Assembly (NCBI RefSeq): GCF_022201045.2
Contig: NC_068560.1
Coordinates: 2,728,001-2,792,000 of the forward strand
DNA length: 64,000 bases
Origin: Citrus sinensis
Lineage: Eukaryota > Streptophyta > Magnoliopsida > Sapindales > Rutaceae
Reading direction: 5' to 3'
Part shown: positions 24,881 to 49,984 of the stretch, piece by piece
Layout of the letters: each line of letters begins with the position of its first letter
How positions within the stretch are numbered: the stretch's first letter is position 1
Translations under genes and position numbers: made by a program
Notes under the pieces: generated by a model
Seen by the model: only the letters and a program-made list of their open reading frames with translations
What the model was told of the DNA's origin: nothing
Databases searched by the model: none

Positions 24881-25053
24881 AAAATACGTTGATCAATTAA
24901 TAGGCGTAGTTTTTACCATGAAAATGAAAAAAAGTATGAAATTATTTTCAGAGCCAAAAATTATATGAAAAAAGATACAATTAGCATTTAGCAATTGATG
25001 CATTTTCAGAAACAACCAACTTAAAATTGGCTTTAGAGATGTATATTTTTTTA

Positions 25054-26533
25054 GGGAGCCGCCTATGTTGCAACAATTGCAACATACCACTACTTTTGTC
25101 ATTTTGTAATTTAACCATTGGATCCAAGGGCAAGAATGGTAAAAGCAAATCCAACGGCAGGGTGTATTTATTTTGGTTTTTTTCATTGCAATCCCTCTTA
25201 TGTTTTGAAATGCCAGGAAAAAATATAATTATTATTATTTTATTTATTAGATTAGTTGTTAAATGATATGAATAAGGAATAAGTATGAAATTTAAGAGGA
25301 CTTTTATTATTGATATTAGGCAATTACAATGCATGATTTAATACTCGTTTATTTATTCCACAAATTCATAAATATTTCGTAATTTATTAATTATTACTAT
25401 CATTTCTAGATCTACTCTCATTATTTAAATTTATTAATAATTATATACTAATTATTATTTTTATATTAATTATTAATATATAAATATAATATGATATAAT
25501 AAAATAATATAATAAAATAATTTATTTTGAATATTATAATTATTATAGTAAAAATAAAAATATAATTTAAATATATTTAATGTTTGAATTAAGACAAAAG
25601 TTATCACACTGTAGTGAATTATATAATTGACTACAATCTAATTTTTTAAAACTTCCAAACATAGGTAAGTAATAAATTAATGTGAACAATATTATAACAA
25701 TATACAATATTATGTTCTAAACACATTCTAATGGTGCGTTTATTAAATAATAATTGAAATGAGCTAGAATTGTAATAATGAATTTGAATTCAAATAAGTT
25801 ATTTACTTGAACTATAGGAATTGGAATCGGAATGAACAACATTCTCATTGATGTGTTTACTTTATTTTATAATTGAAATAGACTATTACAAGTTATTAAA
25901 ATGTCATTTGTTAATTGTGTCCCTAATATTATTTGTATATATTATAATTAAACAATAATAATAATAAAACTAAAAATTATAATTATGACAATAATGTTAA
26001 TTAAAACAAAAAATTAAAAAAATTAACAATAACAATAATAACAACAAAATTAACTAAAATAATAATATTAATAATGATAATAATAAAAATTATTAATAAG
26101 TTTTAATAATAATAATAGTAATAACAACAATAATTAATAATAATTAAAATAATAAAGTTAATATATTTTAATAACAATAATTTTAATCATAACAAGATAA
26201 ATATTAATATTAATGAATTAATTACAGTATAATAACAATTAAAATAATAAAAGAAATAAATTTTAATAATAATAATGATAGTAAAAATCATAAATAATAA
26301 TAATTAAAATAAATAAAAATAATAAAATTTAATAGAAATAATCTTATATAATAATAATAATAATTAAAATTCTTTTCAAATGTCATTTTATTCTAAAAAT
26401 GGACTTATATGCAAAATTTTGTTACGTTTAGTGGCTATTGAATTTTACAGAAAATATAAGGTAGTGTAGTGTAATCAAACATAAAATGACAAAGGTTGTT
26501 GTATGTTGCAACTGCTGCAACATAGGCGGACCC
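25054..26533. mobile_element. 1,480-bp non-autonomous TIR transposon (8-bp TSD)
   Basis: Both ends begin GGG: left GGGAGCCGCCTATGTTGCAA, right (opposite strand) GGGTCCGCCTATGTTGCAG. The similarity runs about 50 bp, to TTTGTCATTTT. Direct TTTTTTTA flanks at 25046-25053 and 26534-26541. Sister repeat copies are uninterrupted here, which confirms the insertion. The interior is extremely AT-rich (AATAATAATAAT-type) and has no transposase. An 8-bp duplication suggests hAT; a following G on both sides allows a 9-bp reading with shorter ends, so Mutator-like is possible. Confidence 0.85.
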
Positions 26534-27124
26534 TTTTTTTAGCGACATTCCGTCAAATACTCTAAATTTTAATTGGCAAGCATGGCGTAGATGACCTACC
26601 GCTTATGGGCTGCACCTACAAGCAACATGCCCTAAGAGTAAGAAACAAACGAATGTCAAGTCGTACGATGCATTCAGACAGCCAACAAATGTAAATATTA
26701 TGCAATGGCATATATGAATGCTGACTCATCATTCATATTTTAAATATGGAAGATGCATCAATGATGTAAAAATAAAATAAACAACATGACGTCCACATCG
26801 TACATGAAAAATGGCGCATTAGTGGAAACGCATTATTCAGAATAGTAATCATTAAGATTATACTCAAAGAATAAACAAATTTTACTAAGAGAAATTATTA
26901 TTTTATATTTATACTCATGCAAAATTAGGTAATATTTTTTAGGAAAATTAGGCTTTATGTTTTGGGCAAATTAATATACAACTAATTTGTAGCTTTTCCA
27001 GAAATAAATAAATAAAGAAAAAATAATTGATTGCATTAACAATCGATTCATTTTGAGAAACAACCAATCCAAAATTTGCTTCCTAGATGTGTATTTTTCA
27101 TTAACATTACATCGAATACTTTAA

Positions 27125-27640
27125 AGTTGTATTTACTTTCTAAAGTGGGAGTAAGGAGTGCGGATTCCTCCAACTCTAGTGTTTACTTCATCATTTTAAG
27201 GGAAGATTGGGAATCCTACTATGTGAGTCCCACCCATTTTTGAATCATATTGCCCTTATCAATAATTTCTAATTTACATAATTAAAATTAAAATTAATAA
27301 AAAATTGTGATGTACATAATTAAGAATATTAATAATTATTATAAATTTACAAATATCATAAAATAAATGTTTATTCATCACATATATTTGTCATTAACTT
27401 TGTAATTAAAAACTATAATTCTTTAAATAAGGGTAAAATTATAATTTAAAACTATTTACTCTCAATCCAAGACAAAGTAAATACATAAATTTGATTCTGA
27501 TCTCCATTCCATACATCCATTCAAGTATAAGTAAATAACCCACTCACACTCCCACTTCACACTCTCAATCCTGAGGAGTGGGAATCCTAGGATTCCCACT
27601 CCTCAGGATTTCCATTCCAATCCAAAATGTAAACGCCACC
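27125..27640. mobile_element. 516-bp Tourist/PIF-Harbinger-like MITE (TAA TSD)
   Basis: TAA at 27122-27124 and 27641-27643 flank ends AGTTGTATTTACTTT and, from the other side, GGTGGCGTTTACATTTTGG. The ends align without gaps, mostly with C/T and G/A differences as expected from decay of methylated cytosines. Removing it restores the ATTAAATTTTAATTGGCA phrase of the sister copies. It contains a perfect palindrome at 27568-27609. No coding capacity. Confidence 0.8.
27568..27609. repeat. Perfect 42-bp palindrome
   Basis: Two exact 21-base arms without a spacer: ATCCTGAGGAGTGGGAATCC followed by T at the centre, then the exact reverse complement. It lies near the right end of the Tourist-like MITE and includes part of its subterminal GAGGAGTGGGAATCC repeats. 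Confidence 0.95.
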
Positions 27641-29138
27641 TAAATTTTAATTGGCATGTACGCCGCAGATGATATGTCGTTTACAGACCAAGAAGAGACA
27701 AAACATGACGAACGTAAAAGAAATAAACGAAAGTCATGTCGTTTGAAGCATTCATATAGTCAACAAGCATAAATAGTATACCTCGGTTCATACTATTGTT
27801 GACTCATTGTTTGTGTTTTGAACGCAAACGCTGAGCCAATGGTGTAAATCATAGAGAAACGATGAGATGTTCGTCTTGTACGTGCGAGACGACGAGTCAT
27901 CTGGCGTGTTGATTTCTAAAGGATTTGAATAAATATAAGAGACCTTTTTTTCCTTTGATGATTATGTGGAACAATAATCATTAAAATTATAATTAAAAAA
28001 AAAACCACTAACAAAAATCGTCAATTGCAATACAATTTTTAATTATTGACAACTAAAAGTGTGTATATACATACACACTCCTTTTATATTTTTTGGTTTA
28101 CGTATTTTATTATCACAAGAATGAATTAAAAAAAAAAAACTAACTAAAATTTGGATATAGGAAGCAACCATTGGCAACAGCTTGTAGTTTGTATTTTGTA
28201 CTATTATTATATGCTCATACAAAATTAGGTTTTATTTTTTACAAAAATTAGGTTTTATTATTTGGGCAAGAAAACATGTAGCTTTTCTAAAAATAAATAA
28301 ATAAATAAAGTAAAAAAATTAGCTAGATTAGCAATAGGTGTACTTTAAGAAACAACTAACATAATATTTACTTAAGAGATGTGTATCTGTTAGTGATATT
28401 ACATCGAATACATTAAATTTAATCAACACACACGGCATAGATGACCCTGCATTTGTGCACTAGGATTAGAAATGACATGATGAACATCCATAAAAGAAGA
28501 TGATGTCATGTCATTCAAAGCATTCAGACAACCAACAAGCATAACTAGTATGAGTGGTTGCATACTATAGCTGGCTTGTCATTCATATATTTGAACATTG
28601 ATGATGTATCAATGGTGTAAATGAAAAATAAACAACGAAACATCCACCTTGCACATGAGAAACGACACGTCATCAGCTATGTTGATTTCCAAAGGATTTA
28701 AATAAATGTAAGAGACCTTTTTTTCTCTAATGATTGCATGGTTCATGTATTTTATTATCACAAAAAAAAATTGGATATTGAAAGCAACCATTGGCAGCTG
28801 TTGAGTGTTAGAAAATGCATATTTATAAAGGAGAAAACCGTCATTTTACATTTCAAGTCTTACTAACAACCCTTACTTTTATGTATTTAACCTTCTTGTG
28901 ATGTAATTACGTGTGTGTTATTTTAATTAAGTATTTTATGTATTTTAGGGGCAGTATAGCCATTTCACAATAAAGGAGAGATCAGACGGCAAAACGGACA
29001 TCACTTTTGAACTCAGGACGGTCGAAAACCTTAGGAGGAGCATAAAAGGAAAAATGGCACTATTCACATGTACGGTACTATTCACGTATACGGTACTGTC
29101 TACGTTACTGTTCACGACACTGTTCACATAGACGGATC

Positions 29139-29192
29139 GATGACGTGGCATTGACCGATGATGTGGCATTGACTGATGAGGTGTCACGATCC
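29139..29192 (+). promoter_or_regulatory. U3 enhancer-like tandem repeats with TGACGTGG cores
   Basis: Three consecutive 18-bp units at 29139, 29157 and 29175 (GATGACGTGGCATTGACC and diverged forms). Exact TGACGTGG occurs at 29141, 29226 and 29376, and the same sites recur in the 3' LTR. This ACGT core is the C/G-hybrid type bound by plant bZIP factors (ABRE/as-1/UPR-like). A role in stress-induced transcription is inferred. Confidence 0.5.
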
Positions 29193-29442
29193 TGTTGGGC
29201 TAAAATTCTTATGTACTGTTGATGGTGACGTGGCAGCATATCAGTGGACGAAAAATCTCGTGTACGGTGCATGCATCACACAGGATTATTTTCAATCAAA
29301 CCGCGTTACTGTTCAAAGTCGGGTCAAACCGTGTTACTGTTCATCCGCGTGGTCAAACCGTGGACTGTTGACTGATGACGTGGCGCAATCCTGAGCGTCC
29401 AAACTGTTTTTAATCCGATGGCCATGATTTACTCCATGTATC

Positions 29443-29450
29443 TATAAAAA
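29443..29450 (+). promoter_or_regulatory. LTR TATA box (TATAAAAA)
   Basis: Consensus TATA box in the 5' LTR, followed about 10 bp later by a G-run and C-run. Transcription would start at about 29475-29480 and define R. The 3' LTR has the same box. Confidence 0.75.
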
Positions 29451-30160
29451 GGGGGCCTCCCCCCCTAATTTGATATCTCTGAATCCATTTTTGGGATCCA
29501 TTTTCTGTAATTCCCTCTCCATCTTGTATTTTCTTCGTATTTTAATAAATTCCCATTTTGCCCCTAGTTCAATTATGAGTGGCTAATTTTCTTTCAAGCT
29601 TGGGTTGAAGGTGAAGTCTCAACATGTGTCATGGGCTTAATTTGGTAAATTTATTTTCTCTTCCCCTCTAGTTTTTGTGGATGTTTTGACTTCTCGTCGA
29701 CAAATAATACTAATCTTGTCTAGTACCGCCTTGGTTTCACCGGCCCTCTAGTACAAGGTTATTATTATTTGGCACGATAAGCCCTTAGCACCATATTGAT
29801 TAGAGCGTGGTTCATGAGGTGTGGATTCCCCCCTCATGATTTAATTGGCATTAATAAGGAATATTTAGCCCATGATGCATGTTGATACGGATCCAGATAC
29901 CCAAGTACGTCATTTCAATAGAATTCTCTTCAATTTATTCTCACCATTTCAATACCAATTTTAGAATTTATTCTCTCCATTTTAATTTAAGTTTTAGCAT
30001 ATTCCAATCATTTCCACCACAAATCTAATCACTCATTCACAAAATTAATTCTACACAATTAAAATCCACCTCCTCGTGGGATCGACACTCGTCACCATTA
30101 ATCTATACTACAACAGATTCGTGCGCTTGCGAGTACATTAAAATTTGCACAACAAGTTTT

Positions 30161-30177
30161 TGGCGCCGTTGCCGGGG
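30161..30177 (+). other. Primer binding site complementary to tRNA-Asp
   Basis: TGGCGCCGTTGCCGGGG begins 6 bp after the 5' LTR. It is the exact complement of the 3' end of plant tRNA-Asp(GTC), including the CCA tail. Athila elements characteristically use this primer. Confidence 0.93.
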
Positions 30178-30565
30178 AGGTAAGTAATTTTAATTCATAA
30201 AATTAATTTTTGTGAATAATTTCTTTTATTTGTTTTCTTGTATTTTTTTTTATTATTAAAAAAAAAAGAAAAAAAAGTGAATCTACATTTAAAGGTTAGT
30301 ATTTCTTTTCTTTTTCTCTTCTTTAAAATTTTGTAATTTAATTTTCCATTTATTTTTCTTTGTAATTTTTTTTTGTTTATCTTATTAATTTAATTTTTAG
30401 TTAATTTCTTTCACGTATTTATTTTTGTGTATTTTTATAGAAAGGTTGTAATAGCGCAATAAGGTTAGTATCGTAATTTCTCACTCTTCTTTATTTTTAT
30501 TTGTTTTGTTCCCATCTTTATTTTTTGTTTTGTTTGCATCTTTATTTTTATTTTATTTGTTTTGT

Positions 30566-33500
30566 ATGCATGGTCGTAGGTCATTATTACCTAATCTTGA
30601 ACCTATAGACCTTGAATTAGAAAAAACACTTCGCACACACAAACACGTTAAAAATAAAATGGATTTACAAGCACCACAGGAGAGGCCATTTAAGGACTAT
30701 TTTAGTCCCTTAGCTAATTTGAGCACGTCATGCATAAGATACCCAAATGTAGCTGCTAGGAGCTTTGAACTAAAACCTAGTGTGCTAAATTGTCTCCCCA
30801 CATTCTATGGCTTAGAAAATGAGGACCCATATAATCATCTGAATGATTTTCATGCCATTTGTCAAACATTCAAATATGAGAATTTTTCAGATGATGATGT
30901 TAAACTTAGACTATTCCCATTTTCTTTAAAAGATAGAGCTCGTTCATGGTTAAATACTTTACCTGCTAATAGCATTTCATCCTGGGAACAAATGGTAACT
31001 AAATTTTTGAATAAATATTTCCCAGTGCATAAAACCAATGCTATTCGCAGGGAAATCTCGGAGTTTACCCAGAGAGAGGACGAGCAATTTTTCGAAACAT
31101 GGGAGCGATTCAATGGGCTACTCTTGAAGTGTCCACATCATGGGTACGAGAAATGGCACCAATGCCAATACTTTTTGGAGGGATTATTGCCAAATGTGCA
31201 AGAATGGCTAATGGCGACAAGTGGAGGAGAGCTAATGTCAAAAAGTGCATCAGAGATTTGGGAATTCTTCCAGCGACAAGCGGATAATTCCCAACAACGG
31301 AGTCGATCACTCAGGAATACTAGACGAATTAAGGGAGTAAATGAGGTTCAAATTGGCGAGTCAACTTCGGGAATCAAAGAAGTTAAGGAGATGGTTGAAG
31401 GTCTTGCTCGACAAATAGCATCGTTATCGACTGCTAAATCAACAGAACCACATGACCAGGACTCATACTCAGATCAAGCCAATGCCATAGGTGTAATGAG
31501 AAAGCCATCAAATTACAACCCATACTCCAACACATATAACCCTGGATGGAGAGACCACCCCAATTTTTCATGGTCTCAAGGATTCCAACAGAATGGACCA
31601 GCAGCTCCAGCTCCACCAATGCAACAAATTCCTCAAGTTCCTCAAGCCTCTCAGCCCCCATTCAGACCATACAATCAGAACCAGAACTACTCTCAACCCA
31701 GACCATGGGAGGATGCATTCCAAAATTTCAAGAATGTTACTCACTCCACGATTGAGCAACAGAATCGCACCATTGATGGACTACGAAATGAGTTGAGAGC
31801 AGGCTTCAATTCACAAGCCCAATCAGTTTCAAGCCTCGAGAAGATGGTGGGACAACTTGCTTCTTCAGTTCAGACCTTGGCAATGACCGTTGAGAAAGGT
31901 AAGTTTCCAAGTCAACCAGTGCCTAATCCTAAAGGAGTACATGAAGCAAGTACCAGTTCACCACAACAGCATGGAGGGGTCAAAGCAGTAATGACCTTGC
32001 GAAAAGGAAAAGAAGTCGACAACAAGGTGGAGATGCCAGTGACAAAAGAAAATCAAATTGTACCTGTGAATGTTGATGACTCATCACCGGAGGAGAAAGA
32101 AGAAACCAACCCACAAGAATATGTTCCCAAAGCTCCATTTCCTCAGAGGTTAGCAAAAGGAAAAAAGGGAAAATTCACAGGTGAGATTCTTGAAATCTTC
32201 AAACAGGTAAGTGTTAACATCCCTTTGTTTGATGCTATTAAACAAGTTCCATCTTATGCCAAGTTTCTTAAAGACCTTTGTACTAAAAAGAGAAACATGC
32301 ATGTTCAAAAGAAGGCATTTTTAACAGAAAACGTTAGTTCTATACTCCAACATAAAATTCCTTTAAAATGCAAAGACCCAGGCTCCCCCACTATCTCATG
32401 TAGTATAGGGAACCACACAATTGAGAATGCTTTGTTGGATTTAGGAGCTAGTGTAAATCTGTTACCTTATTCAGTGTTTGTGAAACTTGGACTGGGAGAA
32501 TTACACCCAACTCCAGTGGTGTTACAACTTGCAGATCGATCCACAAAAATACCTCGTGGTATTGTGGAGGACGTGCTTATCCAGGTAGACAAATTTTATT
32601 TTCCTGTTGACTTCATTGTAATTGACACTCAACCAATACAGGATTCAAGGAAGCACATCCCCATTATTCTAGGCCGACCTTTCTTGGCAACTGCGGATGC
32701 TCACATTCAATGTAGAACTGGAAATATGCAGTTGTCCTTCGGCAACATGACTATGGAGCTGAACATCTTCAACATTGCCAAACAACCTCACAGTGCAGAT
32801 GATGGAATTGTTGATGTGGATTTAATCGAAGCATTAGTTGATGACACTTTTCTTTCAAACCTTAGTGATGATCCTTTACAAACATGTTTAACTCACTTTG
32901 GTTTTGATTTTGATATTGACAGATCGGTTGATGAGGTCAACGCCCTGCTTGACTCAGCACCATCTATGGACACTAATAAATGGAAGTCAAGAGTTGAGCA
33001 ACTAGCACCATCAGAGAAGCAACTCATTCCATCATCAGAATCACCACCGAAACTCGAGCTCAAACCATTGCCCAACACTTTGGAATATGCGTTTTTGGGA
33101 GAAGAAAGTACTCTGCCGGTAATCATCTCATCATCCCTAAATGACGAACAAAAAGGTAAGTTGTTGGATGTTTTAAAAGAGCACAAAGAAGCATTAGGAT
33201 GGACCATAGCAGATATTAAAGGTATAAACCCAGTAGATTGCATGCATTACATTCACCTTGATGAAAATGCTAAAACTACTAGGGAGATGCAACGTCGGTT
33301 AAATCCTAACATGAAAGAAGTTGTTAGAACTGAGGTCCTTAAGCTATTAGATGCAGGTATCATTTACCCAATTTCTGATAGTTCATGGGTCAGTCCTGTA
33401 CAAGTTGTCCCTAAAAAGTCAGGAGTCACAGTAGTTACCAATGCTGATAATGAATTGATACCCACTAGAGTGACTACAGGATGGCGTGTATGCATTGATT

Positions 33501-35956
33501 ATAGAAAATTGAATTCTGTCACACGTAAAGACCATTTTCCTTTACCATTTATTGATCAAATGCTTGATAGATTAGCAGGCCATGAATTTTATTGCTTTCT
33601 AGATGGTTACTCAGGATATAATCAGATTCCCATAGCACCAAAAGATCAAGAGAAAACTACTTTCACTTGCCCTTTTGGCACATTTGCATATAGGAGAATG
33701 CCATTTGGATTATGTAATGCACCTGCTACATTTCAACGATGCATGTTGAGCATTTTTTCTGATATGGTGGAACGATTCCTTGAAGTCTTTATGGATGATT
33801 TTTCTGTCTTTGGTGACTCGTTTGATCAATGTTTACATCATCTAACACTAGTTCTGCAGAGATGTATCGAGAAGAACTTGGTCTTAAATTGGGAGAAATG
33901 CCATTTTATGGTAAAACAAGGTATTGTTCTCGGTCACATCATTTCGAGTAAAGGTATTGAGGTTGACAAAGCCAAGGTGGATCTCATTTCTAATCTTCCT
34001 CCACCCAAAACAGTCAAAGAAGTAAGATCTTTCCTTGGGCATGCTGGTTTCTATAGACGTTTCATTAAAGATTTTAGCAAAGTTTCTAGACCCTTATGCA
34101 ATTTACTTGCTAAGGATGTACCTTTTATCTTTAATGATTCATGTCTCATGGCGTTTGAAAAATTAAAACAGTTGTTGACATCATCACCCATCATTCAGGC
34201 CCCAAACTGGAGCTTACCATTTGAGCTCATGTGTGATGCATCTGATTATGCAGTAGGAGCAGTATTAGGACAAAGAGTTGATCGAATTCCCCATGTTATT
34301 TACTATGCTAGTATGACATTAAATGATGCACAGTTGAACTATTCAACTACTGAAAAAGAAATGCTAGCAGTAGTGTTTGCATTAGAAAAATTTCGATCTT
34401 ATCTCATTGGTTGTAAAATAATTGTGTTCACAGATCATGCTGCTCTTAAATATCTTCTCACAAAGAAAGATGCAAAAGCTAGACTAATTCGTTGGGTGTT
34501 ACTTTTGCAGGAATTTGACTTGGAATTCAAAGATAAGAAAGGGTCAGAAAATGTTGTGGCGGACCATCTCTCTCGTCTCCATTTTGACACAATAATAGAA
34601 CAATTACCATTAAATGAGTCATTTCCAGATGAACAATTAATGAGTGTGGAAGTATTACCTTGGTATGCTGATATAGTTAATTATCTTGTTACAGGTAAAC
34701 TTCCAGAGCATTGGAGCAAGCAAGACAAGATCAAATTCTTTGCGGAAATAAAGAATTTCTTTTGGGATGACCCGTATTTGTTCAAGTATTGTGCAGACCA
34801 AATTGTTAGACGATGTGTCCCAGAAAATGAAATTCAGAATATCCTTTCATTCTGCCATGAACAAGCTTGTGGAGGCCATTTCAGTGCTAAGAAAACAGCG
34901 ACTAAAGTTTTACAATGTGGTTTCTATTGGCCAACACTATTTCGAGACGCTTACACTTTTTGTTCTTCATGTGATAGGTGTCAACGAATGGGGAGCATTA
35001 CGCGAAGGAACATGATGCCACTAAATCCAATTTTAGTGGTTGAGATTTTTGACGTATGGGGTATCGACTTCATGGGACCTTTTCCCCCGTCTTTTGGTCA
35101 TCAATACATATTGGTTGCTGTTGACTATGTATCAAAATGGGTAGAAGCTATTCCATGTAGGACCAATGATCACAAGGTGGTGATAGCATTTTTGAAAAGC
35201 AACATTGTTTCACGCTTTGGATTCCCTCGAGCAATAATCAGTGATGGTGGTGCCCACTTTTGTAACAAAGCATTCAAAGCACTTTTGACAAAGTATTCAA
35301 TCACACACAAAGTGGCGACCCCGTATCATCCGCAAACCAGTGGCCAAGTTGAGATCTCCAATCGAGAAATAAAGCACATATTAGAAAAAACGGTGAGGCC
35401 GGACAGAAAAGATTGGTCATTAAGACTTGATGATGCCTTATGGGCATATAAAACGGCTTTCAAGACCCCGATTGGGATGTCACCCTACAGGCTAGTGTAT
35501 GGAAAAGCTTGCCACCTACCTGTGGAACTCGAGCATCGTGCATATTGGGCCATCAAGAAATTCAATTTTGACATGCAGCAAGCCAGCTCAGAAAGAAGAT
35601 TACAGCTGGCAGAACTTGAAGAAATTCGCAATGACGCGTACGAAAATGCCAAGATTTACAAGCAACGAATGAAAGTCTTCCATGATAAGCAAATTATGAG
35701 AAAATCGTTCACTCCAGGTCAGAAAGTGCTTTTATTCAATTCTCGCTTGCACCTATTCCCAGGTAAGTTACGCTCTCGTTGGTCTGGCCCATTTATTGTT
35801 CATACTGTTTTTCCACATGGGGCAATTGAAATTAAAGACCCAAAGAATGGTGTCACGTTTAAAGTTAATGGTCAAAGATTAAAGCCATATCTAGAGTACC
35901 AACCACATGAAGAAGACACCGAAATAAATTTGAGTGACCCACCAAATTTGAATTGA
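30566..35956 (+). CDS. Gag-Pol polyprotein, Athila-type Ty3/Gypsy retrotransposon
   Basis: A single uninterrupted frame of about 1,796 aa from MHGRRSLL. An upstream in-frame Met at 30506 would add a T-rich hydrophobic stretch and is less likely. Gag (~60-300) has the retrotransposon gag helices ([36 protein letters not shown]); no CCHC zinc knuckle is visible. Protease [12 protein letters not shown] (~620). Reverse transcriptase: [11 protein letters not shown] (~970), [19 protein letters not shown], catalytic FMDDF (~1075). RNase [16 protein letters not shown] (~1220). Integrase: H2C2 zinc site (HEQACGGH...CSSCDRC, ~1430) and D,D,E residues in GIDFMGP, SDGGAHF and SGQVE. It ends with a basic C-terminal region ([12 protein letters not shown]). 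All catalytic signatures are present, so autonomy is plausible. Confidence 0.95.
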
Positions 35957-36041
35957 TTTTTTTTTCTTTTCGTTGATTTGATTTTTCTTTCTTTCTTTTT
36001 ATTATTATTCTTTTGCTAATTGAAATTGTTTTTGCATAAGT

Positions 36042-36317
36042 GTGTTTATTTTACCATTAAGTTTTCTCTTATCATTTTTAATCATGAGTCTCATACTTAG
36101 ACCGTTCCTCCTGAACATTCTTAAACCACTTCAACATGTCAAAACTCATCTCAAAAGACAGATTCAATTTTGTAAAACACATCGCATTTGGGCTCTACAA
36201 CCACCAGAGTTAGTAGCCTATGTTGAGGGTTTAGAACACCAACTCAGAGACATTGAGAGAAGTGTTTACGACATCCAGTTGGAGCTTGAGGTAAATTCAA
36301 TAAGAGGACGATTTTAA
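36042..36317 (+). CDS. Retrotransposon ORF2: small hydrophobic / coiled-coil protein
   Basis: 91 aa, first of three ORFs after pol. An N-terminal hydrophobic stretch (LPLSFLLSFLIMSLILRPFLL) could be a membrane anchor. A basic segment (KTHLKRQIQFCKTHR) follows, then an amphipathic heptad-like helix (ELVAYVEGLEHQLRDIERSVYDI) near residues 55-80. An internal Met would give 76 aa. No family recognised. The layout loosely recalls a minimal envelope-type protein, but nothing proves it. It could equally be a leader exon or a non-functional ORF; a GAG|GTAAAT donor-like site lies near its end. Confidence 0.4.
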   Translation: MFILPLSFLLSFLIMSLILRPFLLNILKPLQHVKTHLKRQIQFCKTHRIWALQPPELVAYVEGLEHQLRDIERSVYDIQLELEVNSIRGRF

Positions 36318-36459
36318 TTTTCTTTGTGTGTTTTAATTTTTTTTTTCTATTGGTGTGCTTTAGTTTGTTACCCCGGTGAAGTGGCGGATAACGGTACTCC
36401 GTGACAATCAAGTCGGTTACTTCAGTTTCCCATAATAACTGATATTCTGAGGCGAAGGT

Positions 36460-37017
36460 ATGGACAGAAACGAGATTCTAGCGAAGCTTCACAAGCGATT
36501 CCCTTCACTTCCTCAGAATGCCCTCCTTACGATCTATAAAGCTCGGTCCGAACGCATGCGATTACTCATGAGGAATAACATACCTGCTGACATCCGTTGG
36601 TTAATCGAGGCTAAAGTACGATCGGCAGGTGAGTTACCTCCAAAATTTATTGCATACATGCCTGGTTGTGGTAAAGGAAATTATGCAAGAAAACGACGAG
36701 CTCGAAGAATTTCTGTTGCTTGTCATAAGTGTGCCAGAATGAGTTGCAATAAAAACCCATGTTCTTTAGGAATGGTGTCTGATAACAGGGAAGATAAGAT
36801 TCAATTCATTAGGGATGGCTTGAATAAGGAGTCATTGGATGATATCCTTTTGTCTCTTGAAACGCATCCCAGTGGATATGTGCAAGGAGCGATTCTCCAG
36901 TTATGGCCATTATTCCAGAAAGAGCATGCACGATATAGTCTCGGGAATCTGACTATAAACGACCCTGTTTGCCAGTTTATAAGAAAACTGGATAGGAAGC
37001 CTATCCTCGACCCATAG
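36460..37017 (+). CDS. Retrotransposon ORF3: basic Cys-cluster protein, plant-virus NABP-like
   Basis: 185 aa, intact. It begins with a helical region (NEILAKLHKRFP...LLTIYKARSERMR), then a basic run GNYARKRRARR (73-83) directly followed by Cys88-x2-Cys91-x4-Cys96-x4-Cys101. This arrangement, a YA-x-R-R basic motif then CH-x-C, resembles the cysteine-rich nucleic-acid-binding proteins of carlaviruses (Pfam Carla_C4), some of which suppress silencing or act in the nucleus. The middle Cys spacing is shorter than I expect for that family. The C-terminal half (ESLDDILLSLETHPSGYVQGAI...) is not recognised. Nucleic-acid binding and nuclear location are inferred. It lies between pol and the LOG-like ORF on the same strand and in a young element, so it is probably not decaying. 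Confidence 0.55.
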   Translation: MDRNEILAKLHKRFPSLPQNALLTIYKARSERMRLLMRNNIPADIRWLIEAKVRSAGELPPKFIAYMPGCGKGNYARKRRARRISVACHKCARMSCNKNPCSLGMVSDNREDKIQFIRDGLNKESLDDILLSLETHPSGYVQGAILQLWPLFQKEHARYSLGNLTINDPVCQFIRKLDRKPILDP

Positions 37018-37358
37018 AGGGCGTTCAAGCCGTTTCTGGACGTAGAACCAGAGGAAGATGTGAGCCACAGTCGCAACTACCTGTAAATATCCTTTCACTT
37101 TACTGTTATTTTATTTCACTATTGTTTTATTGTGTGCATTATTGTCTTTAAAAATTTTATTACTGTTTGCTTTTTCCTTATTACTGTTTTCTTTTTCCCT
37201 TTTACTGTTTCCTTTTTGACTAGCGAGCCACGTGCTTTACGCGTTATTTGACACTGACATGTTACCTCATACATAACTGTGATCCACTGTCACCAAGATT
37301 CTTAAATGTGATTTCCTTTTTGTCAAGCACTCACAAATTGTTTTCGAGAAGTATCACA

Positions 37359-38027
37359 ATGGCAGCTACTCCCAATAGACAATTCAAGAACATTTGTGTG
37401 CTTTCTGGATTTACCTATGGCAAACATAAAGAGTTCGTTGAGGCAGCTATAGATCTTGGTCGAAGCATAGCAGCGAGAAAATTACATTTGGTGTATGGAG
37501 GAGGTAATCGAGGGTTATCAAAAATGGTCTCAGAAGCAGCTTTTATCAGAGGAAGTCAAGTGTTAGGCATCATCCCAAGAGTCCTAAAACCATTGGGCAG
37601 TTCGTCTGACTCATCAACTGGAGAAGAGTTAGTCGTCTCAGGTATGCAAGAAAGAATAACTGAAATGCTTAATTATGCTGATGCTTTTATTTTCCTTCCA
37701 GGAGATCTTGCAACACTAGAGGCACTTATCACACTAGCATCTTGGGCCCATCTGCACATCCACCAGAAACCCATCGGTTTGTTAAATGTCAATAACTTTT
37801 ATGATGGCTTTATCGCATTTCTTAACCATGCAATAAAAAACTATTTCATTCCCGCTAATGTGAAAAAACTCTTTATTTGTGCTCACACTGCTAATGAGCT
37901 ACTGGATCTATTACAAGCTTATAGACCGGAGCCAGACCCCTGGACCTTTGTGTTGGAGCGTCCAAATAATGATGGTAACAGTAGCAGCAGTAAGAAGTAC
38001 AAATTAGATTTAACTCTCCGCCTGTAA
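37359..38027 (+). CDS. Retrotransposon ORF4: captured LOG-like (cytokinin-activating enzyme fold) protein
   Basis: 222 aa from the Met at 37359; the frame is open further upstream but that part lacks family character. LOG enzymes release free cytokinin bases from riboside 5'-monophosphates. Family landmarks in order: FKNICVLSGFTYGK (9-22), LVYGGGNRGLSKMVSEA (44-60), VLGIIPRVL (68-76), MQERITEM (96-103; catalytic Arg99 position kept), PGDLATLEA (114-122) in the PGGxGTxxE position, then WAHLHIHQKPIGLLNV and a C-terminal helix. In the catalytic loop two glycines became Asp and Ala and the final Glu became Ala; an adjacent Glu121 remains. Phosphoribohydrolase activity is therefore doubtful. No introns, whereas host LOG genes have several, so it was captured through RNA. 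Its frame is undisrupted. Confidence 0.85.
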   Translation: MAATPNRQFKNICVLSGFTYGKHKEFVEAAIDLGRSIAARKLHLVYGGGNRGLSKMVSEAAFIRGSQVLGIIPRVLKPLGSSSDSSTGEELVVSGMQERITEMLNYADAFIFLPGDLATLEALITLASWAHLHIHQKPIGLLNVNNFYDGFIAFLNHAIKNYFIPANVKKLFICAHTANELLDLLQAYRPEPDPWTFVLERPNNDGNSSSSKKYKLDLTLRL

Positions 38028-39970
38028 ATATTTTCTTCTGTGTTGCACCACCCAGGTGATGTCTTCTAAACTCTACTTCTTTCATTTCAAACATTGAGGA
38101 CAATGTTTCGTTCTGGTTGGGGGGAGGGAATAGTTGACAATTATGAAATTTTGGTTAAGTTTTTACTAATTTTTTGTTGTAGAAACTAACTGTTGCTAAC
38201 TTTTTGTGTTGAAGATGGCTGAATATGGAGTGTAGTGACTCTAGAAACGCATCTTCATCGTTTAAAAAAAAAAATTAAAAAAAAAAACTTAAAAAAAAAT
38301 TAAGACATTTTCTTTTTTCTTTATTATGTGTTTATGTTTATTTTTCTTCTTTTTAATTTATCCTCTATAAAAATGCATTTTCCAACTTTTGAGTCGAAGA
38401 TGGCTGAATATGGAGTGTAGTTCCTCTAGAAACGCATCTTCTTTAAAAAAAATAATAAAAAAATCATTTTCTTTTCTATCATTTTTGTAACTTTTCTAAA
38501 TTAATTTTTCTACATCATTTTCACATTTCTGCATGCATATTATTTTTTTTTTTATGTTTAGAATAGGTTGGGGGGTAGAATGTTGTTTAAAAAAAAAAAA
38601 TTTTTGATTTGTTTTAACATTGGGTGACATGATTAATTTAAATTTTAGTATTTGTATTATCTTTGGTCTTAAGTGATGTTACGCTATGTTTGCTACTTTA
38701 CATGTTGATGTCGGAGACAAATGTGAGTTGCTTGAAGGAATGAACATGTCATAATAAGTACCAAGTGAGTTTTTGAGCCTATTATTTTTCTTGGAGAATA
38801 ACCCTTTTGCCCACTCTTTATACAGCTTAGCAGTTTATTATTTTATACACGATCTCTAAATTACTTTTGAGTTAACCCTTAAAAAAAAAATTGTAAAATA
38901 AAAAAAAAAGAGAAAAAAGAAAAAGAAAAAAGAGTGTGTTGCTACATTTGGAGGCCCATCTAACTAGTAGATATGGAAGATTATTTAGAGCCCTAAAAGA
39001 CGATGGAGAGGCCATCTTTGATCCGTTTGAGCCTTTCAAGCCATCCCTTTTATTTAATATCCATAGTTAACCCTTTTGAGCCTTTAAAAAAAAAAAAAAA
39101 AAAAAAAAAACCTTTTCTTTGTCAACTTATCATCTTGACCCACTCCGATTTGGAGTATTACCCGATATCTTATAAGTTCCATCACCTATTTATGTTTGAG
39201 AAAATGTAAATAATTATTTTGTTCAGTGAAGTTATGCCAAATAAAAAAAAAAAAACAAAAACAAAAACAAAAACAAAAGTTGTTATTTCAAAAGAATAAA
39301 AATAGGTGAAATCCACCTTGCAACTTCCAAAAAAAAAAAAAAAATTCTCTGCATTTTTCTCAAACATACACTTTGTTTTCCTTATTTCCTTTCTTTGTTA
39401 GCCATATCCCTAGCCTACGTTACGTCCTAATAAAAGTCCTTCTTGATTTTAGGGAACTATAGTTTGAAGTAGAAGCTAGTTATATGGGCTAAAAAGATGT
39501 AGTGATGCATAAAAAAAAAAAGATAAATAAAGTGGGTTGACTAACATTTTATTTGACTTGAGATCGTATTATTTCTAAGCTGAGGGCATATTTATTTCAT
39601 CTTGGTGAGAGCATGTGATATCATTTCTTTATTATTTTCTCTCTCAATTACCATTCATTGGAGTGACTATGTTTATTGGGTTTTAATTTCTTTGTGAGAG
39701 TGTCACCACTTCCAGTGAGATTTTGGGGTTTGACATGTCATTCTTGAAAGTAGATATAACAAAGTCTACTGGGCTGATTCATATGGATGGTTAATATGGG
39801 TGTGATATTTCTTTAGACTGGAGATAATGCTTATACTTTTATTTGATTGCTATCATTAATCTGATTGAATAAATATGAGTGTTTCAAAAAAAAAAAAAAA
39901 AAAAAAAAGAAAAATCATTTTGAATTTGAATTTTGTTTTCGCTTTATTTGCTAGGGACTAGCAATAAGCT
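38028..39970 (+). other. Noncoding 3' tail of the retrotransposon
   Basis: Rich in A-runs and T-runs, without supported ORFs. It contains a duplicated hairpin segment (38212-38445) and two polypurine-like blocks, GGTTGGGGGGAGGG near 38116 and GGTTGGGGGG near 38567, that resemble the true polypurine tract next to the 3' LTR. Long noncoding tails of this kind are usual in Athila elements. Confidence 0.6.
38212..38445 (+). repeat. Duplicated 185-bp-spaced segment with a self-complementary arm
   Basis: AAGATGGCTGAATATGGAG followed by TGTAG, CTCTAGAAACGCATCTTC occurs at 38212 and again at 38397. Each copy starts GAAGATG (or CGAAGATG) and ends CATCTTC, so each can fold on itself. Both are followed by A-runs. 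Confidence 0.8.
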
Positions 39971-39982
39971 GGTTGGGGGGTG
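39971..39982 (+). other. Polypurine tract of the retrotransposon
   Basis: GGTTGGGGGGTG directly abuts the 3' LTR (first base 39983). Its position fits the plus-strand primer of reverse transcription. Confidence 0.75.
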
Positions 39983-41339
39983 TGTTGAGTGTTAGAAAAT
40001 GCATATTTATAAAGGAGAAAACCGTCATTTTACATTTCAAGTCTTACTAACAACCCTTACTTTTATGTATTTAACCTTCTTGTGATGTAATTACGTGTGT
40101 GTTATTTTAATTAAGTATTTTATGTATTTTAGGGGCAGTATAGCCATTTCATAATAAAGGAGAGATCAGACGGCAAAACGGACATCACTTTTGAACTCAG
40201 GACGGTCGAAAACCTTAGGAAGAGCATAAAAGGAAAAATGGCACTATTCACATGTACGGTACTATTCACGTATACGGTACTGTCTACGTTACTGTTCACG
40301 ACACTGTTCACATAGACGGATCGATGACGTGGCATTGACCGATGATGTGGCATTGACTGATGAGGTGTCACGATCCTGTTGGGCTAAAATTCTTATGTAC
40401 TGTTGATGGTGACGTGGCAGCATATCAGTGGACGAAAAATCTCGTGTACGGTGCATGCATCACACAGGATTATTTTCAATCAAACCGCGTTACTGTTCAA
40501 AGTCGGGTCAAACCGTGTTACTGTTCATCCGCGTGGTCAAACCGTGGACTGTTGACTGATGACGTGGCGCAATCCTGAGCGTCCAAACTGTTTTTAATCC
40601 GATGGCCATGATTTACTCCATGTATCTATAAAAAGGGGGCCTCCCCCCCCTAATTTGATATCTCTGAATCCATTTTTGGGATCTATTTTCTGTAATTCCC
40701 TCTCCATCTTGTATTTTCTTCGTATTTTAATAAATTCCCATTTTGCCCCTAGTTCAATTATGAGTGGCTAATTTTCTTTCAAGCTTGGGTTGAAGGTGAA
40801 GTCTCAACATGTGTCATGGGCTTAATTTGGTAAATTTATTTTCTCTTCCCCTCTAGTTTTTGTGGATGTTTTGACTTCTCGTCGACAAATAATACTAATC
40901 TTGTCTAGTACCGCCTTGGTTTCACCGGCCCTCTAGTACAAGGTTATTATTATTTGGCACGATAAGCCCTTAGCACCATATTGATTAGAGCGTGGTTCAT
41001 GAGGTGTGGATTCCCCCCTCATGATTTAATTGGCATTAATAAGGAATATTTAGCCCATGATGCATGTTGATACGGATCCAGATACCCAAGTACGTCATTT
41101 CAATAGAATTCTCTTCAATTTATTCTCACCATTTCAATACCAATTTTAGAATTTATTCTCTCCATTTTAATTTAAGTTTTAGCATATTCCAATCATTTCC
41201 ACCACAAATCTAATCACTCATTCACAAAATTAATTCTACACAATTAAAATCCACCTCCTCGTGGGATCGACACTCGTCACCATTAATCTATACTACAACA
41301 GATTCGTGCGCTTGCGAGTACATTAAAATTTGCACAACA
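39983..41339 (+). repeat. 3' LTR (1,357 bp)
   Basis: Matches the 5' LTR except, by eye, C/T at the CATTTCA(C/T)AATAAAGG site, G/A at TTAGGA(G/A)GAGC, C/T at GGGATC(C/T)ATTTT, and a C-run of eight instead of seven. Followed by the GCAGC target duplication. Confidence 0.97.
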
Positions 41340-41713
41340 GCAGCAACTTGCAATTTATACTTTGTATCGTTATTATATATTTATGCTCATGCAAGATCAG
41401 GTTTTATTTTTTAGGATAATCAGGTTTTATTTTTGGGCAAGTTAAAAATAAAGGTAACATGCAGCTTTTCTAAAATTAAAAAAATAATTGGCCGGATTTG
41501 CAATCAATGCATTTTGAGAAACAACCAATACAAAATTTGCTTTAGAGACATGCATTTTTCCGCAACATTATGTTGAATACATTAAATTTTAATTGGCACA
41601 CACGGCGCACATGACCTGTCATTTACGGTCCTGGACGAAAAATGATTTGACACACCTAAAAGAGAGAGAGAGATGTTATGTCAATTGTAGCTTTCAAACA
41701 GTCGACAAACGTA

Positions 41714-41739
41714 AATAGTATGTGCCGGCACATACTATT
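41714..41739. repeat. Perfect 26-bp palindrome in the fourth array copy
   Basis: AATAGTATGTGCC followed by its exact reverse complement. Homologous positions in the other copies (about 26690, 27770, 28545 and 51020) carry imperfect versions with the same ATAGTAT/ATACTAT arms. Confidence 0.85.
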
Positions 41740-42020
41740 ACTAAATCGTCGCTTGTATTCGGTCACTAACAATGCGTCAATGGTTTAAATCACAACGAAA
41801 CGACGAATCGTCCTCATTGTACATGTGAAAATGACGCATTATCTGACATATTGATTTCCAAAAGATTTGAATAAATGGAAGGGATCTTCTCTTTTCTTTT
41901 CTCTGATGATTACATAAAATAATAATCATCGAAATTATAATTATAGAAAAAATTAAAATTTACTAATAAAAATCATTAATTGCACGACAGTTTCTAATTA
42001 TTTACAACTAAAAGAATGGA

Positions 42021-46201: not shown

Positions 46202-47348
46202 GGTCATTCTTTGAAATACTTTTGGGTTTAACTTCGATGGGATGGCTAGGCGATGAGGTAATTATATTTTCAAAGTTCTTTGAGTAATGTGGATTTGTAT
46301 ATAAATATTTTCTTTTAAATCGTAATGTTTATGTTTGTCTACAGCATATTCACGAGTATTTTTGCTTGCTTAGCGAGAAACAACGGCAGTATCTGAATGC
46401 CTTACTTCAACGTGTCACACATACCGACACATTTTTTTGGGTAACGTGCCAACATAACGAACATAAATATTATTTATGTTTTTTTTAATTATCGCCTTTA
46501 AGTTTTGTTAATTAATGCATTTCTTGGTTATCTATGTATTACGTGTTCTTGACTCAGTTATGGAACAATGGGGATTGTGCGGTCGATTCATTAGAATTCG
46601 ACAACCGCTTGAATAGCTATCTTTGTGGGCGACAGCACACAATGTCCAAATCGATGACGGATGTCGATATGGTATGTAGTTTATTGCATTTCATATACAA
46701 GTTGTCGATTTTTCTTAGTCCGGCCTTTTCAATTTCATATATAACGAAGATGTTTTTGAATTTTTATATACAGTTACTGATCCCTGTTAACTTGGACGGC
46801 GAGCATTGGGTACTGGCACGAGTAGACTTTCGGAAAAATAAAGTCTGGATTTATGACTCATTACTCACATGCCGCGACGACAAAAGATACAGGTTGAAAT
46901 TCAAGCCACTTGAAGTTATCTTCCCTCGATGGTTGGAATATGTTGGGTTCTACAACATCCGACCTGAGTTACGGAGTGTCGACCCCTGGAAAGTTATCGC
47001 AGTTAGGAGCCGCCACAACAGGAGCGCGGAACTGGCGATTGCGGTGTTTTTGTATTGACGGTTACGATGTATTTAATGTTCGGGCTTACATTAGAGTTTA
47101 TCGCTAGTCATGTCGAGTACTTTAGAAAGAAGATTGCGATTGACATATTTAATGACGATATTGTATTGTAAATCGTTGTAGTAATTTCACTGTTGAAATT
47201 TAAATTTTGATTCTAATTTGCGCACTTAAGTTTATATAATTTGAATGCTCACATTTTAATATTAAAAAAAAATCACACTCACATATAAGTGTACAATACA
47301 CTAAAAAAATATAACAGTTTTAACCAACGAATCATTGAAACAATACAA

Positions 47349-49984
47349 CTAACTTCGATTCGACGCAATGAGATTCTTACACCGCTTACGATTATGGCCC
47401 AGTTCATGACACCGCCCGCATCTTACAGTCCGCCGGTTAACTTCCTCGCCAGCCGAGGGTATTCTGAGCTCTTTACGACGGCTAGGTGGTGGTGCCTCAA
47501 CTGGAGGGTATACTTGCATCTCCTGAATTTCATCTGGAACTTCCCAATCAGCCACATCGCCAACTGGCTCCACTGGTTGTGCATAAGCCATCGCCAACCA
47601 TTCTGTAGTGTAAAAGTCCAAGCAAAGATTAATATAATCCACCCGGTGTGTTAGACACACCGCAATTGCATGAGCACATACAAGCTGATCAAGCTGAAAT
47701 ACTCTGCAGGAGCAAGTTTTCTTTTGCAAGTCAACCAAACCTTCCTTAAGCCCACCACCTATAACTTGAAATCGATGCGGAGACACCGGCCGAACTATCA
47801 TTCTTTCAGCTATAGTTCTCCTCTCAGTGACTATTTCATCCGCCCATGTTGTTAGCCGAGTACTCATTGATTCAGCCACAATTTTTCTATCATAAAACCA
47901 TTGCTGCAGCGTTTTCCTAAAGTGATCAACAAGATGAGTAACAGGAAATTTTCGCGGTTCCCTCATGAAAGAATTAACACTCTCCGCGATGTTGGTGGTA
48001 AGAATGTTGTACCTCCTACCTTCAAACTGAGACCTTGCCCAATTACACGTACCGACATTATTTTCTAGGTAGTCAGCCGCACCCGAGTGGATCATCCACA
48101 ACCCTTCAAGTTGTCTCTTAAATTCCTCGTGGCCATATGCTTTTGCTGTATTAATAAAGGCAGGCTCAAATTGATCCCAAAGAGCTTTTGACATTCTAAA
48201 CTGTGACTTAATGTTACCTTTCACGTGGTAAAAACAAACTCCGTGAGTTGCATTGTGAAATACTTTAAGAACGGCTCTCCTTATGGCAGTGCATCGATTA
48301 GATATAATTACCAACTCAGGTCTATCGCCAATCACTCCGTATAACTTCATCATAAACCATTCCCAAGCATCATTGTTTTCTGAATCCATGATCCCAATGG
48401 CTAACGGATACAATTGATTGTTACCATCAAGACATGTTGCCACGAACATGCTTCCACGATATAGCCCCTTGAGATGAGTACCATCTACATCAATGACAGG
48501 TCGAATGTACTACATAAAACCCTTGATGGAAGATCCGAGTGCTACAAAATAGTATAAGAAATTACCATTTCCATCCTGCTCGATGTGAGTGACTGTACCC
48601 TCATTCGCTGTAGTTAGTACGTGAGAGTATTTAGGGAGCAAGTTGTATGACTCTGCAGGGTTGCCTCGAACTATTTCAAGACCAACTTCTCTCGCCCGAT
48701 ATGCCTGCTGGTATGTTAACTGAACACCGTATTCTTGTTGCATATCTGCTCTTATGTCATTTGGAGTATAAATTCTCTTGTCTTGAATATATTTATCTGC
48801 GATAATATGACCGACAACCCGGCTCCTGACTTGATGACGTCCAGCAACCAATACCTCATTATGACAAGTGTGTACATTATCAATTCTCTGCACCACCTAA
48901 GGAACATTTTCCTCGTTCGAACATCTAGTTGCTCGAATACGCCATTTACATGATTCTAAACTACAGTGAGCCTCGAAACGTGTCGTAGTAGACTGTGCAA
49001 TCTTGAAATCAAACTTATCCCGAAAGGCAACCTTGCGTAGTTGTAATATAAACTCATTCTTCTCAGCAAATAGCTTACCCACACTGATATCATCTGAGTC
49101 ACAACTACTAACAAAGCTTGGAGCAACCATGTTCGAAGGCAAAGTTGGAGCAACACTTGTGAGGGAGTCAATTCTCCTTCTCGATCGAACCATAGAAGGA
49201 ATAGGTCTATTGCCTCTGTTATTCACAGGAGTATTGTCTTCACACTCATCCTCATGCTGAAACGACGGAACATTCGAAGGACCGGCTCCTCCATCATCAC
49301 CATTATTATTGAAATGAGTGCCCCTTATATTATTAGAAGGTTCTGCACAAACATTATCCCCCTCTGTCTCATCATGAAAATCATCATTGTCCCGAAAATC
49401 ATTATTGTGATACGGAGAATACCGTTGCTCCAACGACGTCGTTATTGGAAATACCGTTGCTCTAACATCCTGTAACGTAACGCCGTCATCATCAATGTTG
49501 TCATAATTGTCGTAGATTGGAGAGTAATATTGCTGCAGTGATATTGTCCTTGGCAACACCTCTTCTTCATTATCGGGGCCAGACATATTTGCTCTAAACG
49601 AAGTTTCTGTATCGACATGTGGCTCAATACCTTCACTCGGAACTCAAGGTGATGTGGTAACGAATATAAGAATGCATCCAAAATTAGCTACGTCGGATGC
49701 CATATGTAACACAACCCTCACCATTTCATCATCAAATATATACATGGGCAGTGCACATACACGATATAATATGTTACTAGACCTCAAAGTTGTCTTCATT
49801 GTGATACTATATTCATTAAGATTAATTTGTAACACATCGTATACTCTTGCCAATAACTGATCAAAAAGACAATTTTTTTTCAACCAAAAAAAGCTCTATT
49901 TTTACCATTGACATACTCCATACGCCCATCCTCTAATATCTCCCACCAACCATCGTAACACAATTCAAGTACAACTGAATCCAT
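47349..49984 (-). pseudogene. MULE transposase, broken
   Basis: About 878 codons, from an ATG at 49984, with one shift in the A8/T8 run near 49875. In the remaining frame there are three premature stops: TGA at 49646-49644, TAG at 48899-48897 and TAG at 48512-48510. The N-terminal region ends near VALPMYIFDDEMV-type sequence, followed by an acidic linker, the DNA-binding region (EAHCSLESCKWRIRA), the MULE catalytic domain (DVDGTHLKGLYRG first Asp; IISNRCTAIRRAV where the second Asp is Asn), a SWIM zinc finger (CSC...CAHA) and a C-terminal zinc knuckle (CGRCHELGHNRKRC). It cannot be active. It runs tail-to-tail with the ULP1-like gene, 177 bp apart. Confidence 0.9.

Follow-up and report, generated by a model that had tools for sequence, protein, structure and literature searches.

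Here we report that a complete Athila-type LTR retrotransposon of Citrus sinensis, 12.5 kb long and spanning positions 28799-41339 of the analysed window (the whole stretch of 64,000 nucleotides), holds an open reading frame (ORF) with the LONELY GUY (LOG) fold, which is maintained under purifying selection together with a neighbouring virus-type ORF and has an altered catalytic site. LOG-bearing Citrus elements are already in print; what is new is the combination of an altered catalytic site under selection, a virus-type neighbour, an EAR-like tail and an apparent exchange of the two-gene cassette. From the sequence, we give about an even chance to the reading that the captured LOG was repurposed as a non-hydrolytic accessory protein, with a presumed role for its tail.

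Architecture, age and cargo of the element

The element and its flanks comprise the following features, in window coordinates.

28794-28798 (no strand): 5' copy of the target-site duplication GCAGC, flanking the element
28799-30154 (+): 5' LTR, 1356 bp, TG...CA, from LTR comparison
30161-30178 (+): 18-nt primer binding site that pairs with the CCA-bearing 3' end of tRNA-Asp(GTC)
30506-35956 (+): gag-pol ORF with gag, protease, RT, RNase H and integrase, from the ORF list and Pfam
36460-37017 (+): accessory ORF, 185 aa, of the carlavirus/allexivirus nucleic-acid-binding type (NABP), with a basic stretch and a Cys cluster
37359-38027 (+): LOG-fold ORF, 222 aa, intronless, from Pfam, a PDB sequence match and a structure model
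37698-37724 (+): altered active-site motif PGDLATLEA, residues 114-122 (canonical PGGxGTxEE)
38004-38024 (+): LDLTLRL (LxLxL, EAR-like), with which the predicted disordered C-terminal tail ends
39971-39982 (+): G-rich polypurine tract-like stretch GGTTGGGGGGTG, 5' of the 3' LTR
39983-41339 (+): 3' LTR, 1357 bp
41340-41344 (no strand): 3' copy of the target-site duplication GCAGC, flanking the element

Both LTRs start with TG and end with CA; three transitions and a single gap column separate them (K2P 0.0022). With the substitution rates used for dating, 1.3e-8 to 2.2e-9 per site per year, this corresponds to an insertion age of about 0.09-0.5 My. The low LTR divergence, the GCAGC duplication and the full set of gag-pol domains bear out the preliminary description of a young, complete Athila-type element. 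The gag-pol ORF was called mechanically from a TTG, and its true start probably lies inside the listed frame. The tRNA-Asp-type 3' end matching the primer binding site belongs to a tRNA-like stretch present at 14 genomic sites, the one examined being tRNA-Asp(GTC) by ARAGORN; Athila elements usually prime from tRNA-Asp.

No second (aRH-like) RNase H was found among the gag-pol domain matches (Pfam, E up to 0.1), and Pfam Athila ORF-1 (PF03078), which is carried by 16% of Athila elements (PMC6317226), was absent from the Pfam matches of the element ORFs. According to PMC6317226, the Tat lineage is marked by an additional RNase H (aRH) and Athila is without it, and tRNA-Asp is among the primers of non-chromovirus elements. 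Since pol has no second RNase H, the element fits Athila rather than Tat by these criteria, an assignment that rests on the domain set and a non-tRNA-Met primer site. Diverged direct repeats, about 70-85% identical, bracket the element at 24980-28735 and 41355-42014; its insertion site seems to have been an older array of repeats.

Elsewhere the window holds two genes that are each open in a single frame, one of resistance type with Rx_N/NB-ARC/LRR domains and 1455 aa (58882-63249, -), the other a 1088-aa ORF of LeuRS type (20544-23810, -). A second long tRNA-synthetase ORF is a 362-aa GluRS/GlnRS-type fragment (6662-7750, -), and a 295-aa IRX15/GXM-type ORF lies at 18352-19239 (+). The intervals 47349-49586 (-) and 46534-47058 (+) hold Mutator-type transposase ORFs (MULE, SWIM, MuDR DNA-binding) and, on the strand opposite to these, an ORF with an Ulp1-protease domain; they may be parts of one MULE that carries an Ulp1 domain.

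The LOG ORF is open over 222 codons plus a stop between pol and the 3' LTR, as the preliminary description had stated, and the family motifs quoted there are present. Its homology to LOG proteins is confirmed by PF03641 (E 1.1e-27), PF18306 (E 3.8e-9) and NCBIfam TIGR00730 (E 8.8e-37; 126.6 bits, above the cut-off of 96.35), and the closest solved relative is Arabidopsis At2g37210 (PDB 2a33, E 2.6e-44); against the NCBIfam equivalog model NF058542 it scores 90.5 bits, below the cut-off of 300. The AlphaFold2 model has a mean pLDDT of 80, with a confident core and residues 196-222 below 50. Foldseek places it closest to Arabidopsis LOGs (E about 2e-20, rmsd 1.2-1.4 A), so that PF03641, TIGR00730 and structural comparison agree on the LOG/TIGR00730 Rossmann fold. 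Identity to Arabidopsis LOG3 is about 40%.

A frame artefact was ruled out, as the ORF is open throughout and the best-scoring genome copies are open as well. A host LOG gene merely adjoining an insertion was likewise ruled out by the position of the ORF between the LTRs, and also by a similar NABP-LOG distance in other copies. In the viral collection, the sole relative was a distant LOG-like protein with 23% identity (contig L101, IMGVR_UViG_3300049893_003113).

The assembly searched comprised 300 Mb in 11 contigs. When Arabidopsis LOG3 was used as the query, the best 150 of 1758 candidates matched nearly the whole protein in one piece, and all 30 of the matches examined (L009-L038) were element copies; host LOG loci were therefore found by codon patterns. 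Each of the nine canonical host loci recovered in this way is broken into several exon matches, whereas intact element copies form one open stretch. As the host loci are split by introns and the element copies are uninterrupted, the gene structures agree with the RNA-mediated capture proposed earlier, likely from a spliced plant LOG message.

Comparison with the host's own LOG genes, which the preliminary description had proposed, was made in a tree of 104 proteins in which the nine host loci were represented by joined exon pieces, three of them partial. The tree was built with a quick method and SH-aLRT support, without bootstrap. The host loci cluster with two Arabidopsis LOGs, separately from the element-type proteins (SH-aLRT 100), and the Citrus A and B element proteins make up a group of their own (SH-aLRT 100) on a long branch; 37 of the 100 inner branches are unresolved.

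The window LOG has 618 relatives, and 107 of the 120 listed come from Citrus x changshan-huyou, many of them bearing a cytokinin-activating LOG name from UniRef. Citrus annotations thus probably apply the name 'cytokinin-activating LOG' to many ORFs that belong to elements and have an altered active site. Among the listed matches of the older copy L049, those that keep the canonical site include named proteins from Populus, Reevesia, Diplodiscus and Xanthoceras. There are hints that non-Citrus relatives are element-borne as well, namely a statement on P. trichocarpa in PMC9289625 and a NABP (P0169) and a LOG (P0262) that are both assigned to a 4511-base jgi contig.

Copies, selection and the two-gene cassette

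A degenerate codon pattern for PGDLATLEAL, which by design requires an intact motif, gave 831 exact genome matches (427 forward, 404 reverse) and none in the control. In a protein search with the window LOG, the best 150 of 2113 candidate places were 97-100% identical and 149 of these 150 were without an internal stop, in a sample biased towards the best copies. Forty copies were taken from the listed pattern matches along two chromosomes, a non-random sample that leaves out most best-scoring places and so leans to worse copies; LOG was intact in 13, NABP in 10 and both in four (L062 was cut by the chosen region bounds and L065 was a few bases short). NABP precedes LOG in the same order in three subfamilies.

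Six pairs of LOG copies among the best 150 places lie 11.1-11.2 kb apart, which equals one LTR plus the internal region (for example C1:7549655 and 7560799; C2:2332071 and 2343216), as if neighbouring elements shared an LTR in tandem. Two copies are rearranged: in L053 the place of LOG is taken by LTR sequence together with a fragment of gag-pol, and in L005 LTR sequence stands directly before LOG, with NABP absent from the examined stretch.

Selection was estimated by NG86 from intact ORFs only, in a set of 87 sequences (the window copy and 86 loci) with 55 intact LOG ORFs (44 distinct) and 48 intact NABP ORFs (33 distinct); many of these loci were chosen as best-scoring, which biases the set towards intactness. 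Between subfamily A, the window type, and subfamily B, which is about 75% identical, dN/dS was 0.22 for LOG (435 pairs, dS 0.73) and 0.24 for NABP (252 pairs, dS 0.96). Within subfamilies the LOG values were 0.27 in A, where single pairs with at least 5 differences ranged from 0.03 to 0.75, and 0.31 in B, where single pairs reached 1.7; the NABP value was 0.29 in both, with single pairs up to 1.8 in A. Between-lineage dN/dS can preserve the imprint of past selection (PMC2410132). Both LOG and NABP are maintained under purifying selection, with dN/dS well below 1.

The earlier expectation that the LOG ORF is kept in many insertions is upheld by the 831 motif matches and the dN/dS near 0.22. The preliminary description had also named the marks of a one-off passenger, namely presence in this single insertion, or dN/dS near 1 with stops in sister copies. 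Many sister copies in the sample of 40 do carry stops in LOG, but the ORF is not confined to one insertion and dN/dS is not near 1. A LOG that merely hitch-hikes, functionless for the element, could account for the 27 of 40 sampled copies without an intact ORF, a sample that omits the best-scoring places; it is at odds with dN/dS of 0.22-0.27, with the number of motif matches and with the constant NABP-LOG order. We consider a neutral passenger almost certainly wrong, and rejected it on dN/dS and copy spread.

The neighbouring ORF in the window matches Carla_C4 (PF01623) with E 0.0095 and 16.3 bits against a threshold of 20.9, and Viral_NABP (PF05515) with E 0.047 and 14.1 bits against 23, both under Pfam gathering. 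At the family level the matches are stronger: 36 of the 41 aligned members match Viral_NABP and 36 of 41 Carla_C4 at E 0.01 or better, and the best members reach 1.1e-8 and 1.7e-7, respectively. The ORF has 269 matches, and among the 120 listed, Citrus, Xanthoceras, Acer and Populus are represented by named proteins. A PDB sequence search with the ORF gave one chance-level match and a search with the NABP alignment gave none; the predicted structure is poor (mean pLDDT 60). The family has in common with the cysteine-rich NABPs of carlaviruses and allexiviruses (PF01623, PF05515) the basic and Cys-cluster domain and matches to both viral Pfam models. It differs in being retrotransposon-encoded and longer, about 182-185 aa, the carlavirus protein being 11-16 kDa (PMC12334012). 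By analogy, the NABP ORF might act in silencing suppression. Several Citrus gene models (P0053, P0075, P0084) join the NABP ORF to LOG.

The two accessory ORFs and pol appear to differ in their history. Between the window element and a B copy (L009/L099), pS in pol was 0.76 over 985 codons, which is saturated, so that dN/dS of pol between A and B was not computable; NABP (pS 0.54) and LOG (pS 0.46) were unsaturated. A rough two-proportion test against pol, in which the number of synonymous sites is approximate, gave z of 5.2 for NABP and 7.6 for LOG. Identity was 0.80 in the NABP-LOG spacer and 0.74 in the pol-NABP spacer, each against 0.65 after shuffling. Because the synonymous sites of pol are saturated while those of NABP and LOG are not, this comparison with one B copy suggests that the NABP-LOG 3' module was exchanged between diverged pol lineages. 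Recombination between distantly related Athila elements has been described in Arabidopsis (PMC2410132).

Active site, tail and proposed role of the element LOG

In the LOG of Corynebacterium, the phosphate is contacted by Gly116, Ala117, Gly118, Thr119 and Ser19, the ribose by Arg99, and the adenine by Met96, Lys100 and Glu121; Arg99 and Glu122 have been proposed to form the catalytic pair, and alanine at the AMP-binding and catalytic residues leads to almost complete loss of activity (PMC4979012). By motif alignment, the window LOG keeps Arg99, Thr119 and Glu121 and has Ile100, Asp116, Ala118 and Ala122. In place of PGGxGTxxE it reads PGDLATLEA, and of the catalytic pair Arg99 is present and Glu122 is replaced by Ala. 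Among the 120 listed of its 618 relatives, none has Glu122 (108 have Ala, 10 another residue and two a gap) and none has the canonical PGGxGTxE. Glu122 is present in all 120 listed relatives of L049, and PGGxGTxE in 111 of them. The replacement of Lys100 by Ile says little on its own, because Lys100 is kept in only 8 of those 120 L049 relatives.

The altered motif is itself conserved: PGDLAT[LF]E occurs in 42 of the 44 distinct intact LOG ORFs of the genome, across two subfamilies with about 75% identity. The altered site is common to A and B, so the protein under the purifying selection measured in the A-B comparison was the altered one. The old copies L048 and L049 retain PGGLGTLEEI, beside a degraded NABP, so the change in the active site most likely came after capture. 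With the older copies and relatives from other rosids retaining the canonical motif, the element may originally have carried an active LOG.

From these replacements we infer that the window LOG has ceased to be an efficient cytokinin-riboside-monophosphate phosphoribohydrolase. The preliminary description had left two roles side by side, alteration of host cytokinin or a repurposed fold; the residues favour repurposing and make activation doubtful, because the site lacks its catalytic Glu and has other residues at two of the Gly positions that bind phosphate. A Citrus element LOG that is still cytokinin-activating, and raises free cytokinin in dividing or meristematic cells, would accord with the retained fold, with Arg99, Thr119 and Glu121, with purifying selection on the ORF and with the canonical site in the L049 relatives (PGGxGTxE in 111 of 120, Glu122 in 120 of 120). 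We find it very doubtful, however, because Glu122 is missing from every listed relative of the window LOG, which also shows G116D, G118A and K100I, and alanine replacements at such residues almost abolish activity (PMC4979012).

The altered pocket could have a new substrate. A changed chemistry, with a different nucleotide bound or cleaved in the rebuilt pocket (D116, A118, A122), would explain why the altered motif is held constant in 42 of 44 distinct intact ORFs of two subfamilies under dN/dS of about 0.22. It is nonetheless quite unlikely in our view, as Asp stands for a phosphate-contacting Gly and, with the Glu gone, another general base would presumably be needed.

The second unusual feature of the protein is its C-terminal tail. 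LDLTL occupies residues 216-220 in the region with pLDDT below 50, and thus places LxLxL, one of two defined EAR patterns (PMC6283911), in an exposed region. Among listed relatives of 205-230 aa, LxLxL lies in the last 14 residues in 61 of 74 relatives of the window LOG and 65 of 81 relatives of L049, and elsewhere in the protein in 0 of 74 and 5 of 81, respectively. Several of the 29 relatives without it are one substitution off and several are truncated; four Xanthoceras relatives (P0337 type) end in KKRRLA or KKRKLA, without EAR. The tail of Citrus host LOGs could be read at one of the nine loci (L044) and has no LxLxL. Titles in print name pathogen effectors that interact with TOPLESS. Binding of TOPLESS by the LOG tail is put forward as a hypothesis, the EAR reading being that of a five-residue pattern.

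LOG is a dimer whose interface forms the pocket (PMC4979012), which opens a further route to a function without catalysis. A dominant-negative LOG, forming mixed dimers with host LOGs and so lowering active cytokinin, would fit a protein that keeps the fold, has lost a catalytic residue and belongs to a family with a pocket made between subunits. The identity of about 40% to Arabidopsis LOG3 gives no guarantee that mixed dimers form, and the conserved tail is left unexplained; we judge this reading unlikely.

For the non-hydrolytic accessory protein that we prefer, the following course may be envisaged. LOG would have been captured from a spliced plant LOG message and would then have lost its efficient cytokinin-riboside-monophosphate phosphoribohydrolase function. 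The element would keep it as a fold scaffold, and the disordered EAR-like tail would contact a partner in the host, for which a TOPLESS-type corepressor is the most plausible candidate; alternatively, LOG might pair with host LOG subunits. Together, LOG and NABP would act as a small host-manipulation cassette that favours expression or spread of the element. More tentatively, and as a less probable reading than the accessory role itself, rosid Athila-type elements in general might carry a transferable cassette of a silencing-suppressor-class NABP and an EAR-tailed LOG, the Citrus LOG being a pseudoenzyme that captures TOPLESS or host LOG by virus- or effector-like tricks.

If the accessory role is right, plant LTR retrotransposons keep and retool captured genes as accessory factors, beyond accidental capture, and in this case the fold of a hormone enzyme has been joined by a kind of protein that, outside this setting, is known from RNA viruses. 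The system lends itself to testing, since both versions of the site, canonical and altered, occur in natural proteins.

Relation to known systems

The preliminary description knew of no LOG-bearing lineage; this does not hold, because a survey of 2022 (PMC9289625) found YgdH, the LONELY GUY protein domain, in Gypsy consensus sequences of Citrus sinensis and C. clementina and, without its filter, also in Gypsy elements of P. trichocarpa, and cites Steinbauerova et al. 2011 as agreeing on the YgdH/LOG domain. By their description, these are very likely the same family as the window element or a sister family. The passages of PMC9289625 on the YgdH/LOG elements hold nothing on catalytic-site loss, the NABP ORF, the LxLxL tail or selection. 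In the literature search, which covered titles and abstract openings among the matches listed and few subscription journals, no publication was found on the altered site, the NABP neighbour or the EAR tail, and no account of apparent cassette movement between pol lineages.

With the Athila lineage the window element has in common the gag-pol domain set, the lack of a second RNase H, the tRNA-Asp primer site and ORFs between pol and the 3' LTR; it differs in that its accessory ORFs are of NABP type and LOG. Extra ORFs were counted in PMC6317226 only at >=250 codons, and both accessory ORFs, at 185 and 222 aa, fall below this cut. With the type-I LOGs (AtLOG3, 2a33; AtLOG8, 1ydh; CgLOG, 5its), the window LOG shares the fold, Arg99, Thr119 and Glu121, and the same dimer architecture is expected; unlike them it has Glu122 replaced by Ala, Gly116 by Asp, Gly118 by Ala and Lys100 by Ile, bears an LxLxL tail, and is element-borne and without introns. 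The AlkB-carrying Gypsy elements of Phalaenopsis (PMC9289625) likewise have an enzyme fold as cargo, possibly for the fitness of the element, but the domain is another one and its activity was shown in vitro, whereas the active site of the window LOG is altered.
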